From: Halarcobacter sp.
GTDB taxonomy: Bacteria; Campylobacterota; Campylobacteria; Campylobacterales; Arcobacteraceae
Reading direction: 5' to 3'
Assembly: GCF_963676935.1 (NCBI RefSeq)
Contig: NZ_OY781470.1
Location: forward strand, 2,018,680 to 2,082,679
DNA: 64,000 bases
Shown: piece by piece, positions 48,883 to 57,205 of the stretch
Numbering within the stretch: the stretch's first letter is position 1
How the letters are laid out: every line of letters starts with the position of its first letter
The notes under the pieces: model-generated
Databases searched by the model: none
What the model saw: the letters and a program-made list of their open reading frames with translations, nothing else
What the model was told of the DNA's origin: nothing
Program-made: the position numbers and the translations under genes

Positions 48883-50001
48883 CTATTCTTGAATTTTATC
48901 AAACTCCATAATAAACTTAACACCAACATTTGAATTTTCTAAAGTTAAATTCCCCTCAAAAGAGTTTTTTACAACAAGTTTTACCATATATAACCCAATA
49001 CCTGTACCTTCTGATTTAGTTGTATAATAAGGGTCAAAAACTTTTTCTAAATCTTGTTCATCTATCCCTCCAGCATTATCACTGATTGTTAAATAGTTTT
49101 TATCATCTTTTGAATAAACTTCTAGAGTTATTTTTCTATCATCTACATTTCTGTCTTGAAAAGCTTGAATTGAGTTCGTTACTATATTCATTAAAACTTG
49201 GGTTAATTCCATCTCTACACCTTTTAATGTAAAGTCATTTTGAAAATCAATATTCAGTTCAACATTGTTTTTCTTAATAATAGAATCAACTAATTCAAAA
49301 CTTCCATCTAATGTTTTTCTAATTGAAAAACTTTTTTTATCTTTATCTGCTTTAAAAAATTCTAAGAAACCATCAATTGTATCTCTCATATGATGAATTT
49401 GAAGTTTTGTATTTTCTGAAAAATCATCTATTGCTTCTTTATCTAATTCTCCATAATCATACGAATATTTAATATCATCACAATATAAAGACAAGATATT
49501 TAAAGGTTGTTTTAATTGATGTGAGATTACGCCAATCATTTCTCCAATTGAAGCCATTTTTGTATTATGAACAACTAGTTTATTTGCCTCTTGTAATGAC
49601 TCTTTTGTTTCTTTATTTTTATGAAATAAATCAATATATACTTTTAGCTTTGAACTTAAAAGATTAACATCAATTGGTTTAGAGATATACTCAATAACAC
49701 CTAAATCATAACCTTTTTGTTGATAAGCATCTTTATCATAAATACCTGTAATAAATATAATAGGTATATCTTTTAACTTATCAATCCCTTTTATATATTC
49801 AACAAACTGAAATCCATCAATATCTGGCATTTGAATATCACTTAAAATTAAATCAATATCATTATCCATCAAAATTTGAATTGCATCTGTTGCATTAAGT
49901 GCTGTATATATATCAACATCAAACTCTTCAATTAACAACTGTAAAGAGTAAATATTCTCTTCAACATCATCTAAAATTAAAATTGAGAATTTATTTTTCA
50001 T
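48883..50001 (-). CDS. Hybrid response regulator-histidine kinase (REC-HisKA-HATPase)
   Basis: The 372-residue soluble protein starts with a receiver domain (ILILDD, phospho-acceptor Asp55 in LILSDIQMP, Lys108) followed by a short coiled linker and a kinase core. Its H-box is GVISHQLKQPL with His161, and the ATPase boxes are NIVTNSIQA, DNAGGI and GTGIGLYM. With an N-terminal receiver it likely acts inside a phosphorelay fed by the kinase encoded just upstream. It has no sensor domain. It begins two bases after the upstream kinase stop. Confidence 0.88.
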   Translation of the reverse strand: MKNKFSILILDDVEENIYSLQLLIEEFDVDIYTALNATDAIQILMDNDIDLILSDIQMPDIDGFQFVEYIKGIDKLKDIPIIFITGIYDKDAYQQKGYDLGVIEYISKPIDVNLLSSKLKVYIDLFHKNKETKESLQEANKLVVHNTKMASIGEMIGVISHQLKQPLNILSLYCDDIKYSYDYGELDKEAIDDFSENTKLQIHHMRDTIDGFLEFFKADKDKKSFSIRKTLDGSFELVDSIIKKNNVELNIDFQNDFTLKGVEMELTQVLMNIVTNSIQAFQDRNVDDRKITLEVYSKDDKNYLTISDNAGGIDEQDLEKVFDPYYTTKSEGTGIGLYMVKLVVKNSFEGNLTLENSNVGVKFIMEFDKIQE

Positions 50002-50003
50002 TA

Positions 50004-51503
50004 TTATCTCCCTATAAAATCTATTATATCTGGTATATCTACAATATTGTCTTTTATTACATAAATATCTTTTTTATAAGTTTCTTTTAGGATATTTAAT
50101 TCATGTTTTGATATACCATTACTATCAACAATTAAAACATCAAAATTATTATCTATTTTTTCTAAAAGTTCCTCCATATCTCTAACTTGTGTTAGTTTAT
50201 GATCTTTTTGTAATGTTATAACTATATTTATAAACTTAACTGCATCGGTATTATAAATAAGTATATTTTTACTAATTGCTTGTTTTTCTATCTCAACTAT
50301 TTTTTTCTTTTTATTATATTCATCATCTAAAGTTAAAATATCTAAACATTTAATAGCATCACTATTTTTAGGTATAGTTACATAAAATGTTGTACCTATT
50401 CCAACTTTACTTTTAACAAAAATAGAACCCTTTAAAAGTTCTAATAACTCTTTTGTAATAGCTAAACCTAAACCTGTACCCCCAAATTTTCTTGTAGTAC
50501 TACTATCAGCTTGTTTAAACCTGTCAAATATATCACTTAATCTATTTTGAGGAATTCCTATCCCCTCATCTTTTACTGAGATATTTATTTGTTCATCTTC
50601 ATCTTTTACACGCAGATAGATAGATTTACCTTTTTCTACAAATTTTATAGCATTACTTAATAGATTTTTAACTATCTGTTTTATTTTTTTCTCATCACTA
50701 TATATATTTGGTTCTATCTCTTTATCAAATTCAAAATACAAATTAATACCTTTTTCTTTTGTCTGAGGAAGAAACATATTATAAATTTCATCTAAAAGTG
50801 TTAGTAGATTTATTTCTGAATAATCAACTACTATTCTCCCCGATTCCAATTTTGAAAGGTCTAAAACATCATTTATCAAATCTAATAAATAATTACCAGA
50901 ACTTTGTATGATTTCAAGATTTTTAATATCTCTAGCAGAAAGATTTCCATTTTTATTTTCTTTCATTACAGAAGAGATTACATTTATTGAATTTAGTGGT
51001 GTTTTTAACTCATGACTCATATTTGCCAAAAAATCATCTTTTGATTTATTTGCAGCTTCTAACTCCTTTTTTTGTTCCCTTAAAAGTTCATTATTCTTTT
51101 TCATTTTATGTACATTTAGACATGACTTTATACTAAGATTTAATTTATTTATAAAACTTTCAAACATAGAGATAAAAAACTCTACATCTAAATTTAATTG
51201 TTTTATAACTAAATACATAGAACCATATTCTAATCTTAATATAAGAATAATTTTATCCTCTTCATAAATCTTATTTATTACCTCTTTATAATCATCATAT
51301 AAAAAAGGATCAAAATTATCAATTTTTCCAAATGATGCAAGCTCTTTAATATCATCATCCTCTTCTATTGAATATAGACCATAAACAGCATAAGTTTCAC
51401 TTACAAATGTTCTTAAAACTTCTTTCATCATCAAAGGAAGGTCTAAAGAGTTCCCTATGGAACTATAACATTTGTATGTTATTGCTAAATTATTTACTAG
51501 CAT
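50004..51503 (-). CDS. Histidine kinase with N-terminal GAF-like and C-terminal degenerate receiver domain
   Basis: From the ATG at 51503 the protein has about 499 residues: a GAF-like region (1-125), a coiled linker, the H-box NMSHELKTPL (His164), and ATPase boxes NLLSNAIKF, DEGIGI and GGTGLGLAI. A C-terminal 90-residue segment follows that looks like a receiver (VLIVDSN) but lacks the usual acidic pair and the Lys. An upstream TTG at 51521 could add six residues. It overlaps the FIST gene by seven bases. The whole protein appears cytoplasmic. Confidence 0.83.
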   Translation of the reverse strand: MLVNNLAITYKCYSSIGNSLDLPLMMKEVLRTFVSETYAVYGLYSIEEDDDIKELASFGKIDNFDPFLYDDYKEVINKIYEEDKIILILRLEYGSMYLVIKQLNLDVEFFISMFESFINKLNLSIKSCLNVHKMKKNNELLREQKKELEAANKSKDDFLANMSHELKTPLNSINVISSVMKENKNGNLSARDIKNLEIIQSSGNYLLDLINDVLDLSKLESGRIVVDYSEINLLTLLDEIYNMFLPQTKEKGINLYFEFDKEIEPNIYSDEKKIKQIVKNLLSNAIKFVEKGKSIYLRVKDEDEQINISVKDEGIGIPQNRLSDIFDRFKQADSSTTRKFGGTGLGLAITKELLELLKGSIFVKSKVGIGTTFYVTIPKNSDAIKCLDILTLDDEYNKKKKIVEIEKQAISKNILIYNTDAVKFINIVITLQKDHKLTQVRDMEELLEKIDNNFDVLIVDSNGISKHELNILKETYKKDIYVIKDNIVDIPDIIDFIGR

Positions 51504-52567
51504 AATGCACCCACCACGCAAGTTTTATTATAAAAATTAATATATTCATTTCCATTATTTGCAATTTCACCTAATGTTAAAGCACCAAAAACTCTTCTAT
51601 TAGGTACAGGTTCTTTAATACTTGCCAATTCTTTTTTAAAATATTTTTCTAAAAATATTGTTCGTGAAATACAATCAAAAAGTACTATATGTTTTATTGT
51701 ATTTAAATCATCTACTTTTTTTATTGCATTATTTATAGCAACGGATGAAGATTTAATCAATTTTTCTTTTTCACCTTTTAAAATATTAACCGTTGAATTT
51801 TGTTCAATATCTCCTACAAGTATCATATTCCCATTTTCGTCTAAACCAATTGGATCTCTTACAACAATTTCATTATTAAATTTTACAATTCCTAAAGGGT
51901 ATGCTTTTGCAATATCAAAAAAATCCATCTCATCAAATTTTAAACCACTATTTTCTTCAACAAACTCTTTATAAACATCAAAAGCATTTTTAAAATTAAG
52001 TGATTTTAAGATATTTTTTTCAGCTGAAGTTACGATAAATGGTCCCTCTAAATACTCCCAACCATTTTCAACCCCAACACTTAAAGTTGATTTTCCTGCT
52101 AAAATTATAGCTGCGTCTTGAAACATTCCATTTTTAGAAAAAATTACAGGTTCTTGTTTGAATGTTAATTTACCTGCTCCACCACCAATAATTTCACTTT
52201 TCATTGGTAGTGTTTGGAACACTGCTTCCAAAAAAGTGGTAATATGTTTGCTAAGACCATCTACAATAAGCATAATAGAATCAAACTCTTGTAATTGTTC
52301 TTTATCTATATCTATTGTAGTCATATCTTCTAAGATAAAAGCTCCAATACTATCATCTAGTTCACAAGCAACCATCCCTCTATCAGTATTAAAATCTTCA
52401 TAAACAATTTGAGGGACAATTGCTCCTTTAAAATCTAAACCTGAGTAGTTTAATAAATCAAAATTAAAATTAAAATTTTCAGCAACTAAAAGAAAAAATT
52501 TACTTTTACTATTTTTGTTTGTATCAATAAAAACTTCTAATTTTTCATAATATTTAATACTTTTCAT
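51497..52567 (-). CDS. FIST domain sensor protein
   Basis: The 356-residue protein has FIST_N (about 20-200, with GGGAGKLTF) and FIST_C (about 210-350, ending FGALTLGEIANNGNEYINFYNKTCVVGAL) features. FIST domains are thought to bind small ligands, possibly amino acids, and occur beside kinases and chemotaxis or c-di-GMP proteins. AAAGGAA precedes the ATG. It overlaps the kinase gene downstream, so it probably senses a ligand and works through that kinase. No signal peptide, so it should act in the cytoplasm. Confidence 0.82.
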   Translation of the reverse strand: MKSIKYYEKLEVFIDTNKNSKSKFFLLVAENFNFNFDLLNYSGLDFKGAIVPQIVYEDFNTDRGMVACELDDSIGAFILEDMTTIDIDKEQLQEFDSIMLIVDGLSKHITTFLEAVFQTLPMKSEIIGGGAGKLTFKQEPVIFSKNGMFQDAAIILAGKSTLSVGVENGWEYLEGPFIVTSAEKNILKSLNFKNAFDVYKEFVEENSGLKFDEMDFFDIAKAYPLGIVKFNNEIVVRDPIGLDENGNMILVGDIEQNSTVNILKGEKEKLIKSSSVAINNAIKKVDDLNTIKHIVLFDCISRTIFLEKYFKKELASIKEPVPNRRVFGALTLGEIANNGNEYINFYNKTCVVGALC

Positions 52568-52580
52568 AATTTTTCCTTTT

Positions 52581-54356
52581 TTAATCTTTTAAACTCTCTT
52601 TTATTTTAAGAACTTTATCTATATTTCTAAAAAATAGTTCAACTAATTTTGGTTCAAACTCAATTCCAGATTTCTTATACATATAGTTTTTAATCTCGTC
52701 AAGAGACCAACCTTGTTTATAACATCTTGTTGAACTTAAAGCATCAAAAACATCTGCAACAGCGGTTATTCTTCCAAAGATATGTATCTGCTCACCTTTT
52801 AATCCTCTAGGATAGCCTGTTCCATCCCACTTTTCATGATGTTCATGTGCTACTATTGAAGAACTTTTTAAAATCTTTCTATGTGAATTTTTAAACATAT
52901 TAAAACCTATAGTTGTATGAGTTTTCATAATCTCATACTCTTCAGAAGTTAATTTACCAGCTTTTTTTAATATAGAATCAGGTATTCCAATTTTTCCAAT
53001 ATCATGCATAGGAGAGGCCAACTTAAGTAAAGTTGCTTCCTCTTCACTAAGTCCATACTCTTTTGCTAACATATAAGAAAATAAAGCAACACGAGTTACA
53101 TGGTTTGCTGTTTCTTTACTTCTTGATTCACCAACTGAACCTAAAGTTAAAATCAAATCTTTTTGTGTTTTTTCTATTTCATGCTGTAATTCAATAATCT
53201 CGCTTACATCATGTCCAACAGCTAAATATTCAATAACCTGTTTATTTTCATTAAATACTGGTGAAAAAGTGAAATCTATATATTTCTTTTTATCTTCATT
53301 AAAATCTATTTTTATTACTTTATGTTTACTCTTACTTTCTATTAAGTCTTCTACTATTTCAGCATAAAGTTGCTCATCTTTTAATATATCTTTTAATGTT
53401 TTATCTTTAAAACTCTCAATTGATTTTTTAGCAAGTTCTAAAAATTTACTATTTAAATTAGTTATCTTAAAATTCTTATCAAAATTGATTAATATAGAAG
53501 AGATATCTAAACATCTTTTATATTCATTCAAAAGATAACTTTTACTTGTTAAATCATCTTTTGATTCTTCAAGTTCAGCTTTTAAGACTTCACTTAACCC
53601 CTCTTCTTCTGTAATATTATTTGAAATACATAAGTACTCTAATATTTTTTTATTATTATCTACTATTGGTATAGTTGTTGAATTAAAAACATACTTTTTA
53701 TCTTCAGATGTTCTTCCAAATATTTTACCTTCCCATATTTCAACATTATCCAATTTTTCCCAAAGCTTAGAGAATGTAGAAGAAGAGGTATCATTTAAAG
53801 TATTAAAATTAAAAAATCTATCTTTAACCTCTTCAAATTTATAACCAGTAATTTTTTCATATTGATTATTTACAAAATTTATTTTACCTTCTGTATCAAA
53901 TTTTATTACTATTGAGCTTTCATCTATCGCATCTTTATATTGTTCTAGCAATTTTCTAGATTGATTTGCTTCAATTTTATCTGCTATAGTATATATCTTA
54001 TCAATTAAAGTATCCAATTCTATTGGCTTTAAAAGGTAACTATCAATATTTAATTCTATTGCTTTTATTAAGCAAGGTGTTTCTGTTCTTGCTGTTGTTA
54101 AGATTATTGGTATGTTTGGATTTATCTCTTTGATTTTCTCAGACATCTCTAAACCATCTATTATAGGCATATTTAAATCACTAATAACTAAATCAATTCT
54201 TTTCTTTGAAAATACTTCTAATGCTTCTTTTCCATTAGAAGAATAAAATACAATATTAAATAATCTATCTAAAAACTTTGAAAGTTTATTTGCTGCTTCC
54301 AATTCATCTTCAACATATAGAACATTTAAACGTTTCAAAAAACCTTTATTTACCAT
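52581..54356 (-). CDS. Response regulator with two PAS domains and HD-GYP output
   Basis: The 591-residue protein has a receiver (Asp60 in LVISDLNMP), two PAS domains (about 145-265 and 285-400), and a C-terminal HD-GYP domain with MHDIGKIGIP, HHEKWDGTGYPRGL and GRITAVADVFDALSS. HD-GYP proteins are c-di-GMP phosphodiesterases; all metal-binding signature residues seem present. AAAGGA lies ahead of the ATG. It heads the minus-strand operon with FIST and two kinases, and it diverges from a regulator gene across a highly symmetric promoter region. Confidence 0.9.
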   Translation of the reverse strand: MVNKGFLKRLNVLYVEDELEAANKLSKFLDRLFNIVFYSSNGKEALEVFSKKRIDLVISDLNMPIIDGLEMSEKIKEINPNIPIILTTARTETPCLIKAIELNIDSYLLKPIELDTLIDKIYTIADKIEANQSRKLLEQYKDAIDESSIVIKFDTEGKINFVNNQYEKITGYKFEEVKDRFFNFNTLNDTSSSTFSKLWEKLDNVEIWEGKIFGRTSEDKKYVFNSTTIPIVDNNKKILEYLCISNNITEEEGLSEVLKAELEESKDDLTSKSYLLNEYKRCLDISSILINFDKNFKITNLNSKFLELAKKSIESFKDKTLKDILKDEQLYAEIVEDLIESKSKHKVIKIDFNEDKKKYIDFTFSPVFNENKQVIEYLAVGHDVSEIIELQHEIEKTQKDLILTLGSVGESRSKETANHVTRVALFSYMLAKEYGLSEEEATLLKLASPMHDIGKIGIPDSILKKAGKLTSEEYEIMKTHTTIGFNMFKNSHRKILKSSSIVAHEHHEKWDGTGYPRGLKGEQIHIFGRITAVADVFDALSSTRCYKQGWSLDEIKNYMYKKSGIEFEPKLVELFFRNIDKVLKIKESLKD

Positions 54357-54370
54357 TATAAATCCTTTGA

Positions 54371-54458
54371 AAAATTATAACTATAAATAGTATTTCAAAA
54401 GTATCATATTATATTGAAAAAAAAATACTTTTGAAATATTTTTTATTGTTATAATTTT
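54371..54458. promoter_or_regulatory. Large symmetric palindrome forming a divergent promoter/operator
   Basis: Two nested inverted repeats share one centre (54414.5): an inner perfect 14-bp pair (54391-54404 with 54425-54438) and an outer perfect 11-bp pair (54371-54381 with 54448-54458). Six of nine positions between them also match, so 31 of 34 arm positions are symmetric around a 20-base centre. Both outer arms contain TATAAT pointing outward, and each is followed by a purine-rich ribosome-binding site and ATG. The inner arms sit where -35 contacts would be, a good place for a dimeric regulator. Confidence 0.75.
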
Positions 54459-54477
54459 GAAAAATAAGGAGCTTATT

Positions 54478-55158
54478 ATGACAATGAAATCAACTACTTA
54501 TCAATTTGTAGAAGATAAATCAGTTCTTCTGATAGGAAAAGATAACACTGTAAATAATACAGTAAAAAAGTCTTTAAAAAATCATATATTAAATATTGAT
54601 ACTTTAGCAGATATTCCAGCTTATCTTAATCTATCTAGATATGACTTAGTAATAATAGATATAGAATATTATGATAACAAAGATTTGGTTCACACTTTTT
54701 CTAATGACTTTTATAATACTCCAATTATCTTTTTAACCTCTGATGTAAATAGTGTAGATTTTAATGCACTATATAATATATCTGTAAAAAATATATTACA
54801 AAAAGATGAAACATTGAATAACATTTTTATCTACAGTTATATTATTCTTCAAAAAAAAGATAAATTGATATTTAAAAATGGTTATTTATACTCTTTAAAA
54901 GATAATAGATTCTATTATCAAAATAGAGAAGTCGCATTAACAAAACTTGAACTTAAACTATTTGAATTTTTAGTGAAAAATATCAATAGAATTATTAGTT
55001 ATGAAGAGATAAGAGAAAAAGTGTGGGATAATAATTCTTGTACTATTTATAGTGTAAGAAACGTAATAAACAAAATTAGAGAGAAGTCATATTACGAAAT
55101 AATTAATAATTTTTCAAAACAAGGTTATACAATAAATAATGATTATATCTATATTTAG
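54478..55158 (+). CDS. OmpR-family regulator with degenerate receiver
   Basis: I place the start at the ATG at 54478, which has AAGGAG seven bases ahead; an upstream TTG at 54457 would overlap the -10. The 226-residue protein has a receiver-like domain in which the usual acidic pair is replaced by GKD (20-22) though Asp61 and Lys109 remain. A winged-helix DNA-binding domain follows (about 135-226, with LTKLELKLFEFLVKN and YSVRNVINKIREK). It may respond without phosphorylation. It diverges from the HD-GYP gene and is the natural candidate to bind the symmetric promoter. Confidence 0.82.
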   Translation: MTMKSTTYQFVEDKSVLLIGKDNTVNNTVKKSLKNHILNIDTLADIPAYLNLSRYDLVIIDIEYYDNKDLVHTFSNDFYNTPIIFLTSDVNSVDFNALYNISVKNILQKDETLNNIFIYSYIILQKKDKLIFKNGYLYSLKDNRFYYQNREVALTKLELKLFEFLVKNINRIISYEEIREKVWDNNSCTIYSVRNVINKIREKSYYEIINNFSKQGYTINNDYIYI

Positions 55159-55203: not shown

Positions 55204-55938
55204 ATGGAAAATTTTAAAGATTATGAAAAAAACATTAGGATTTTGTTAGTTGAAGATGATTATCATACACAAATTAAGTTAGTGAAAATCTTAAATAGAG
55301 TGTATGATGATATTGTTGTTGCAAAAAATGGAGATGAAGCTTTAACCATTTTTAGAGCGTATCACTTACAAAACAAATCTTTTGATTTGGTTATTAGTGA
55401 TATAAATATGCCTATAATGGATGGGATTAATCTTCTAGAAAATGTAAGACAAATAGATGAACTTCTACCTTTTATATTTGTAACTGCACAATTAGATGTA
55501 GATACACTATTAAAAGTAGTTAAACTAGATATTGATAATTATATTTTAAAACCTATTGATGTAAATACTTTATTACAAAGTATTGATAAAACAATTAAAA
55601 AAAGTTTTAAAAGAAGGTTTTTTGCAACAGATAAAGAGAAGCTTTATCTAAATAAAGAACTATATTGGGATCCAGTTGAAAAATCTATTTATAAAAAAGA
55701 AGAACAAATAAAACTAACAAAAAAAGAGATAATGTTTTTAGATATGTTATGTAGTAGAATAAATCAAGTAGTAAGTACAGATGATATTATCTACACATTA
55801 TGGGAAGATTCGCTTGAAATTGATTCTTCTATATCAAATCTAAAAAACCTTATTTCAAGAATAAGAATTAAGATTCCAAATTTAAACATAGAAAATGTCT
55901 ATGGACTGGGATATAAATTAAGGATGCAGCATGAATGA
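55204..55938 (+). CDS. OmpR-family response regulator
   Basis: The 244-residue protein has an intact receiver (ILLVEDD, Asp66 in LVISDINMP, Lys116) and a winged-helix DNA-binding domain (about 150-244, ending NVYGLGYKLR). It is a transcriptional regulator activated by phosphorylation, presumably from one of the nearby kinases. It overlaps the next gene by eight bases, so it is co-translated with the REC-PAS protein. The ribosome-binding site (TAGAG) is weak. Confidence 0.9.
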   Translation: MENFKDYEKNIRILLVEDDYHTQIKLVKILNRVYDDIVVAKNGDEALTIFRAYHLQNKSFDLVISDINMPIMDGINLLENVRQIDELLPFIFVTAQLDVDTLLKVVKLDIDNYILKPIDVNTLLQSIDKTIKKSFKRRFFATDKEKLYLNKELYWDPVEKSIYKKEEQIKLTKKEIMFLDMLCSRINQVVSTDDIIYTLWEDSLEIDSSISNLKNLISRIRIKIPNLNIENVYGLGYKLRMQHE

Positions 55939-57205
55939 GATTGATACTTCAACATTTAAAGTTTTATATATAGAAGATGAAGACTTGGCAAGGGAGAAAT
56001 TTGGTAAGTTTTTAAATAGAAGGTTTGGTGAAGTTGTTTTATGTGCAAATGGGGTTGAGGGGTTTATGAAATTCCAAGAATACTTCACAAAAGATTCTAA
56101 ATTTGATTTGATTATTAGTGATATAAATATGCCAAAAATGGATGGATTAGAAGTTTTAGATGGGATAAGACAATACGATACAGAAGTACCTGTAATATTA
56201 ATTACTGCGCGTTCAGAATCTGAACAAATGTTAAAAGCTATAAATCTACATGTAGAAAGTTATATTTTAAAACCTATTGATTTTGATGTAGTAAATATGA
56301 CTTTAGACAAAGTATCTAAAGATATTTATTATAAAAAAATGTTTGAAAAACAAAACCAAGAGATGGAAACATATCTAGAGATTATTGATCAAGAAGCTTT
56401 AGTTTCAAAAACAGATTCAAAAGGTAAAATAACTTTTGTAAATGATGGTTTTTGTGAAGTTTCTGGATATACAAGAGAAGAACTTATAGGAAATGCTCAT
56501 AATATTGTAAGACACCCAGATATTCCAAAAAATTTTTTTGAAGAGATGTGGGAAACTATAAAAAATGGTAATGTTTGGAATGGGATTCATAAAAACTTAG
56601 CAAAAGATGGAACAACTTATTTTGTAAACTCAAAAATATTTCCAATTTTTGAACTTGATAAAACTACTATTAAAGAATATATGGCAGTTAGATTTTTAGT
56701 AACTAATTTAGAGGAACAAAAAAGAGAAAGCCATAAAAATTTTTTAAGTCAATTGACAAATTTAAAGAAACTTATAAACTCTCTTACCAAAGAGAAAGAA
56801 ACTTTACAAAAAACTGTTAGAGACTTAGAGTTTAGAATTTCAGGCTTTGATGAGAAGTATAGAGTTAGTGAAGCAAAAAGAAAAGAGTTACACAGTCAAC
56901 TTGAAGCCTATGAAAAAAACAAATTAGAATACAATAAAATGGATTTAATGACTAAAAAAGATAAAACAAAACAATTTGAAGAGATATACAAATCATATAA
57001 TCAGTTAAAAGGTAAATTAAATAGAGCAGAAAAAGAGATAAAAGAGAAAGATAAACTATATCAAAGCAAAGTTGAACAAATCGATGATTTATTATCAAAA
57101 GAGATAAAACTTACAAAAAGAATTTCTGACTTAAAAGATTTAGTTACTAATCTTCAAAAAGAGAATACTCAAGTAATAAAAAACAAAAAGATTCTACCTT
57201 TTTAA
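55931..57205 (+). CDS. REC-PAS-coiled-coil protein without output domain
   Basis: The 424-residue protein has an intact receiver (Asp64 in LIISDINMP), a PAS domain at about 145-255 whose sequence NIVRHPDIPKNFFEEMW resembles the FAD-binding PAS of the aerotaxis receptor Aer, and a long charged coiled coil (about 262-420) to the end. No DNA-binding, kinase, GGDEF or methyl-accepting domain was found. It could act by protein-protein contact, for example as a scaffold in the phosphorelay. AAGGA precedes the ATG. Confidence 0.82.
   Translation: MNEIDTSTFKVLYIEDEDLAREKFGKFLNRRFGEVVLCANGVEGFMKFQEYFTKDSKFDLIISDINMPKMDGLEVLDGIRQYDTEVPVILITARSESEQMLKAINLHVESYILKPIDFDVVNMTLDKVSKDIYYKKMFEKQNQEMETYLEIIDQEALVSKTDSKGKITFVNDGFCEVSGYTREELIGNAHNIVRHPDIPKNFFEEMWETIKNGNVWNGIHKNLAKDGTTYFVNSKIFPIFELDKTTIKEYMAVRFLVTNLEEQKRESHKNFLSQLTNLKKLINSLTKEKETLQKTVRDLEFRISGFDEKYRVSEAKRKELHSQLEAYEKNKLEYNKMDLMTKKDKTKQFEEIYKSYNQLKGKLNRAEKEIKEKDKLYQSKVEQIDDLLSKEIKLTKRISDLKDLVTNLQKENTQVIKNKKILPF

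Follow-up and report, generated by a model that had tools for sequence, protein, structure and literature searches.

Two predicted head-to-head promoters with candidate OmpR-type tandem sites account for a long inverted repeat between an HD-GYP operon and a regulator operon in Halarcobacter

The long inverted repeat that separates an HD-GYP operon from an OmpR-type regulator operon in Halarcobacter sp. appears palindromic because two predicted outward-facing OmpR-type promoters sit head to head across 20 bp. Judged from its bases, either arm makes up a full OmpR-type site, which stands in place of a -35 element. We propose that the palindrome is the head-to-head form, locking a sensor/c-di-GMP operon to the operon of its regulator, of a family-specific Arcobacteraceae promoter class (ATACTWTT-N3-ATACYWTTT-N5-TATAAT) that is dedicated to signalling genes and read by an OmpR-type clade related to gene 55204; we give such a class, so defined, an even chance. 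Its genes would comprise response regulators, kinases, chemoreceptors and c-di-GMP enzymes as well as some adhesin and secretion genes.

In the window, which is the whole stretch of 64,000 nucleotides that was analysed, the inverted repeat has arms at 54366-54404 and 54425-54463, with 34 of 39 positions complementary and a loop of 20 nt. Its core at 54371-54458 consists of 34-nt arms with 31 of 34 positions paired in runs of 14, 1, 5 and 11 bp, which reproduces exactly the symmetric positions and the perfect 14- and 11-bp runs of the preliminary description. The symmetry is therefore real, but the wording “near-perfect 88-base palindrome” was generous, as the central 20 bp (54405-54424) form an asymmetric AT-rich spacer between the boxes, which measures 19-20 bp in three relatives. 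The palindrome region has a GC content of 14%. Its palindrome score of 25 compares with a maximum of 15 among 300 dinucleotide shuffles, none of which reaches 25, and ranks first among the 300-bp windows of the 64-kb stretch, where the next unrelated one scores 15.

A feature missed by the preliminary description is the internal repetition of the arms, each of which is made up of an 11-bp direct repeat (ATACTTTTGAA followed by ATAYTWTTTAT), 3 bp and TATAAT. Rightwards, the order is ATACTTTTGAA-ATATTTTTTAT-TGT-TATAAT: the tandem box occupies 54425-54446 on the forward strand, where a -35 element would be (half-sites 54425-54435 and 54436-54446), and the predicted -10 hexamer of the 54478-55204-55931 operon lies at 54450-54455, in the same place in five orthologous regions. 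Leftwards, the order is ATACTTTTGAA-ATACTATTTAT-AGT-TATAAT, with the tandem box at 54383-54404 on the reverse strand (half-sites 54404-54394 and 54393-54383) and the predicted -10 hexamer of the HD-GYP/FIST/kinase operon at 54374-54379 on the same strand, likewise seen in the orthologous regions. Shine-Dalgarno sequences follow on both sides, AAGGAG at 54466-54471 (+) for gene 54478 and AAAGGA at 54363-54368 (-) for the HD-GYP gene, ahead of ATG codons at 54478 (+) and 54356 (-). The outward TATAAT elements, ribosome-binding sites and start codons are all where they had been placed before. On the HD-GYP side (54357-54374), transcription is predicted to begin within the Shine-Dalgarno sequence itself, leaving a very short leader of ~11 nt; in the related genomes G068 and G057 this region is ~10 bp longer.

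Among lags of 5-14, only lag 11 is distinct over 14 sites (identity 0.515 versus 0.366 for permuted columns, p 0.019), which is a modest signal for the ortholog set by itself, and in the right arm the second half-site has ATAT instead of ATAC. The earlier proposal of mirror-image divergent promoters with mirror-image operator sites is supported, with the symmetry kept in relatives that have the gene pair. What changes is the symmetric unit, which is no dyad operator whose half-sites take up a single dimer; each arm instead contains two head-to-tail 11-bp half-sites. A single palindromic operator was rejected because the spacing of the arms varies, being 19-20 bp in four genomes, 67 bp in G055 and 7 bp at L059, while the spacing between box and -10 stays constant.

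Synteny of the locus extends to G068, G057, G054 and, in inverted orientation, G055. Identity of the right 31-mer, which ends in TATAAT, amounts to 31/31, 28/31, 28/31 and 27/31 in these four genomes, and that of the left 31-mer to 28/31, 26/31, 27/31 and 21/31. When the two 31-mers are compared with each other within G068, G057 and G054, they agree at 26, 24 and 25 of 31 positions across gaps of 19-20 bp, and the palindrome scores are equalled or beaten by 0, 1 and 0 of 300 shuffles. The symmetry is thus kept in three relatives with the gene pair, and the palindrome is conserved over orthologues of 61% identity. The disappearance of symmetry among close relatives that would have spoken against the preliminary description was not observed. 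In G055, 67 bp separate the promoter boxes; a third box in between faces the right one across 19 bp, and there is no significant palindrome. Since these distant arms keep their boxes and -10s, the constant element is each box relative to its own -10.

Further relatives show other arrangements. G058 has neither a 54478 orthologue nor the HD-GYP gene at the locus; its FIST-kinase-hybrid operon lies opposite a different kinase operon, with head-to-head boxes and a 19-bp gap. A Poseidonibacter-related genome (L059) has the FIST operon directly opposite the 54478 gene, and the left one of its two boxes, which are 7 bp apart, is weak. In the same genome, the relocated 55204 relative has its own promoter with a near-perfect repeat, ATACTATTATA-ATACTATTTAA-TAG-TATAAT; this site was sought only once the box had been defined, and the prediction held. 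Orthologues of 54478 have retained an ATAC box immediately before the gene, even without an adjoining 55204 (G099/L058: GATACTATTTTTGGCTATAAT). A contig scan for 54478 relatives gave only three, all apparently the same Poseidonibacter-related loci.

The left operon is encoded on the reverse strand and contains i) a NosR-like response regulator with receiver-PAS-PAS-HD-GYP architecture (52581-54356; Pfam) and HDxGK and GTGYP motifs that look intact, ii) a NosP-like FIST-domain sensor (51497-52567; PF08495, PF10442), iii) a NosK-like histidine kinase (50004-51521; HisKA and HATPase_c) and iv) a receiver-histidine kinase hybrid (48883-50001), identified by its ORF, motifs and synteny (L137-L140). 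The first three genes (50004-54356), which are separated by 13 bp or overlap, have by their Pfam domains the gene content of nosRPK, and this suggests NO/haem sensing tied to c-di-GMP breakdown. On the forward strand, the right operon encodes two OmpR/PhoB-family regulators, 54478 (54478-55158; PF00486) with a degenerate receiver and 55204 (55204-55938; Pfam) with an ordinary one, followed by the receiver-PAS coiled-coil protein 55931 (55931-57205; Pfam). Trans_reg_C is present in both regulators according to Pfam. In the alignment, the acidic pair of the 54478 receiver reads IGKD (VEDD in 55204) and the conserved Lys is replaced; Asp61, the equivalent of the phosphoacceptor, is retained in all orthologues but one. 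The predicted structure of 54478 (pLDDT 75) matches OmpR/PhoB regulators including KdpE, PhoP, CosR and HP1043.

We consider it rather probable that a tandem-binding OmpR-type response regulator co-activates the NosRPK-like c-di-GMP operon together with its own operon. On each arm, the two 11-bp repeats (ATACTWTTNNR-ATACYWTTTNN) would be occupied by an OmpR/PhoB-family response regulator as a head-to-tail dimer, which, bound at the -35 position, would contact RNA polymerase for transcription from the adjoining TATAAT. The left arm would drive the NosRPK-like operon (receiver-HD-GYP, FIST sensor, kinase and hybrid kinase) and the right arm 54478, 55204 and 55931; one activated regulator would raise both operons at once, with positive feedback on its own gene. 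With facing half-sites 30-33 bp apart, or about three helical turns, both dimers would lie on one face of the DNA, so that they might cooperate. Cooperation would not be required, because spacings of 7 and 67 bp also occur: the three-turn spacing is not universal, the boxes of the Poseidonibacter-related locus being 7 bp apart.

Besides this locus, the box is found throughout the family. The generalised pattern ATACTWTTNNRATACYWTTTNNNNNTATAAT (≤2 mismatches, site total summed over the genome table) was tuned on sites that include the present locus and gives 197 sites versus 25 for the reversed control in 104 Arcobacteraceae genomes, counts that ignore kinship. In the same genomes, a repeat period of 12 or 10 instead of 11 leaves 21 and 14 sites, and a change of the box-to-TATAAT distance by -1 or +1 leaves 21 and 13. 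The box shows no enrichment in 138 genomes of other families of the order, where 6 sites face 15 in the control, and is thus lineage-specific. The strict arm variant CTTTTGAAATAYNNTTTNTNGTTATAAT (≤3 mismatches) finds only the two arms in the own genome. Convincing head-to-head pairs among the 104 genomes are restricted to the present locus, with the FIST-operon orthologue in G058, and to G006; that symmetry this extensive is uncommon, as first described, is borne out by these two loci. Widespread head-to-head pairing was rejected, the remaining pattern matches being close to control level. The pair in G006 is independent (G006:C2:30242-30325; L135:3743-3826), has a gap of 22 bp and separates two other signalling operons, with a PAS-domain gene on one side and a PAS/chemoreceptor operon on the other.

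The genes behind the boxes are enriched in signalling functions. With the present locus and its orthologues left out, 53 proteins behind fetched boxes form 32 clusters, at least 18 of which have signalling domains (receiver, kinase, OmpR effector, chemoreceptor or GGDEF/EAL/HD), compared to some 11-14 among 85 control ORFs (Fisher p 5e-6 to 4e-5), a control figure that is an upper estimate because of overlapping domain tallies. Receivers by themselves occur in 9/32 clusters versus 4/85 control ORFs (p 0.001). HDOD, LapA-like, TolC and solute-binding genes are likewise found behind boxes. Genes with a box in front of them in the own genome include kinases (L085, L087), a chemoreceptor (L088) and a CheY-like gene adjoining an OmpR-type regulator (L089). 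Some of its boxes have no OmpR-type gene within ~6 kb, and the regulator may therefore act in trans. Local autoregulation as a rule for every box was discarded, since several own-genome boxes precede lone kinases or chemoreceptors.

Several arrangements recur around such boxes. An OmpR-type regulator of ~254 aa is followed by an ATAC box right after its stop codon and then, in the cases checked, by a CheY-like gene (G058:C1:496398, G000:C1:1386856, G054, G057, G068, G056, G062-G064, G077-G079 and G017). Regulators of 190-230 aa with a barely or not recognisable receiver stand behind ATAC boxes in other genera (L062, L074, L078, L080 and L097:4082-4660); the one at L062 has an OmpR effector domain, and as a group they may be more degenerate OmpR-type regulators. 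There is also a sister box, AGACTTTTTAG-AGACTTTTTT-TATAAT, a tandem AGAC repeat with the same 11-bp period in several genera. It lies ~30 bp upstream of the first ORF at L067, L079, L082, L083, L084 and L126 and precedes large adhesin-like genes (one weak LapA match, cadherin repeats), possibly as the code of a paralogous regulator for biofilm adhesins.

Concerning the regulator that reads the box, the degenerate-receiver protein 54478 had been named as the obvious candidate, a claim that is not supported in view of the many genomes that have the box class without 54478 and of the boxes that adjoin 55204 relatives. Orthologues of 54478 (E < 1e-30) are limited to 8 of the 104 genomes, and genomes that lack one are rich in boxes of this class. 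Relatives of 55204 are widespread; at 12 of 25 of their loci, the orthologues of the present locus excluded, a box lies within ~1.5 kb (expected 0.003 per locus), and at several it is directly upstream of the 55204 relative. Because 54478 occurs in few genomes and boxes occur at 12/25 loci of 55204 relatives, 55204 appears at least as good a candidate binder as 54478, in terms of association rather than binding. Most likely the binder is 55204 or its paralogue clade, to which we would assign about half of the probability; otherwise it would be 54478, for which roughly half as much remains, or another OmpR-type regulator. Both 54478 and 55204 could bind, and box variants may be recognised by further paralogues.

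The best surviving alternative is that 54478 needs no phosphorylation to bind the two arms, in which it would resemble HP1043, and that it controls its own gene along with the HD-GYP operon. It has in its favour that 54478 comes first in the right operon, belongs to the OmpR/PhoB type and no longer has the acidic pair or the conserved Lys, that its orthologues retain the upstream box even where 55204 is not adjoining, as in G099, and that the arm variant CTTTTGAAATAYNNTTTNTNGTTATAAT is confined to these two arms within the own genome. However, the box class is abundant where 54478 orthologues are absent, G058 has kept head-to-head boxes without 54478, and the association of the boxes with the 55204 clade extends to sites directly upstream of clade members. 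We regard this alternative as possible but doubtful.

Rather less likely, the boxes are repressor operators, with a regulator over the -35 region that silences both promoters until a signal releases it. The boxes do overlap the position of RNA polymerase, and OmpR-family proteins can repress. Repressors, however, tolerate variable operator placement. A sharply fixed box-to--10 distance across the family, together with the missing -35 element, is typical of activators that replace the -35 (PMC5253667, PMC3847290).

That the inverted repeat works as a DNA or RNA structure, i.e. a cruciform, a bidirectional terminator or the remnant of a small mobile element, seems very improbable. Its hairpin potential is strong in four genomes (z -2.8 to -6.1), with a folding z of -6.1 for a single DNA strand of the palindrome region. 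Nevertheless, transcripts are expected to start outside the arms, and the persistence of boxes and -10s in G055 does not depend on a significant palindrome. A cruciform is further disfavoured because the arms diverge in G068, where the left arm has 3 changes and the right arm is unchanged, with pairs broken and no compensation. A BLAST search of the own genome for a further copy of the palindrome gave none, the remaining matches being short (76-83%) and two weak ones (L003, L004) covering part of one arm or AT-rich sequence only, and an Rfam search with the palindrome region returned no match. A coincidence without function in AT-rich DNA, for which the 14% GC might speak, is practically negligible in view of the 0/300 shuffles that reach the score, the conservation over 61%-identity orthologues and a phasing that beats the shifted controls.

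The tandem sites and the left operon have close parallels in known systems. HP1043 (HsrA) of Helicobacter pylori binds to TTTAAG-5bp-TTTAAG, whose repeats have their centres 11 bp apart, directly before the -10, where the site replaces the -35 and HP1043 stimulates transcription (PMC5253667, PMC8345958). Both cases involve an OmpR/PhoB-family regulator of the same bacterial order and two direct repeats 11 bp apart before a -10, but the two differ: ATACTTTTGAA-ATACTATTTAT (ATACTWTT) departs from the HP1043 consensus TTTAAG-N5-TTTAAG, HP1043 has a highly degenerate receiver whereas that of 55204 is ordinary, and the head-to-head duplication present here is not reported for HP1043 operators in the parts of the sources at hand (PMC5253667, PMC8345958). 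The PHO box of PhoB consists of two 11-nt direct repeats, each with 7 conserved and 4 less conserved nt, that are bound head to tail (PMC4415409); it shares the 11-nt layout with the ATAC box and differs in sequence (CTGTCAT) and regulon. Sigma70 promoters without a -35 box are described for C. jejuni (PMC3847290). In Sulfurospirillum, RR2 is likewise a Campylobacterota OmpR-family regulator with direct repeats overlapping the -35, but these are CTATW-N17-CTATW at organohalide respiration genes (PMC7755780). In the nosRPK system, the FIST protein NosP senses NO and controls the kinase NosK, which targets NosR, a protein with an HD-GYP domain (PMC12570481). The left operon resembles nosRPK of Burkholderia by gene content, since receiver-HD-GYP protein, FIST sensor and histidine kinase share an operon in both (PMC12570481), and differs from it by HD-GYP motifs that look intact, by additional PAS domains and a fourth, hybrid kinase gene, and by the divergent OmpR-type regulator operon that shares its control region. 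The open-access literature searched gave no account of the ATAC box, its family-wide signalling use or its head-to-head form, which is weak evidence of absence. The kind of operator is already known; sequence, family-wide signalling use and head-to-head form are, to that extent, apparently new.

The locus illustrates that an apparent long palindrome can come from two directional head-to-tail operators. With the sharply phased, lineage-specific box that stands before many signalling genes, the palindrome becomes a testable control code in a family whose members carry dozens of two-component proteins. Should the box be read by one clade of regulators, regulons of Arcobacteraceae would be predictable from sequence and the NosRPK-like c-di-GMP operon would be linked to a named regulator. 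If the proposed class holds true, the box would represent a shared code through which signalling regulators control other signalling genes.
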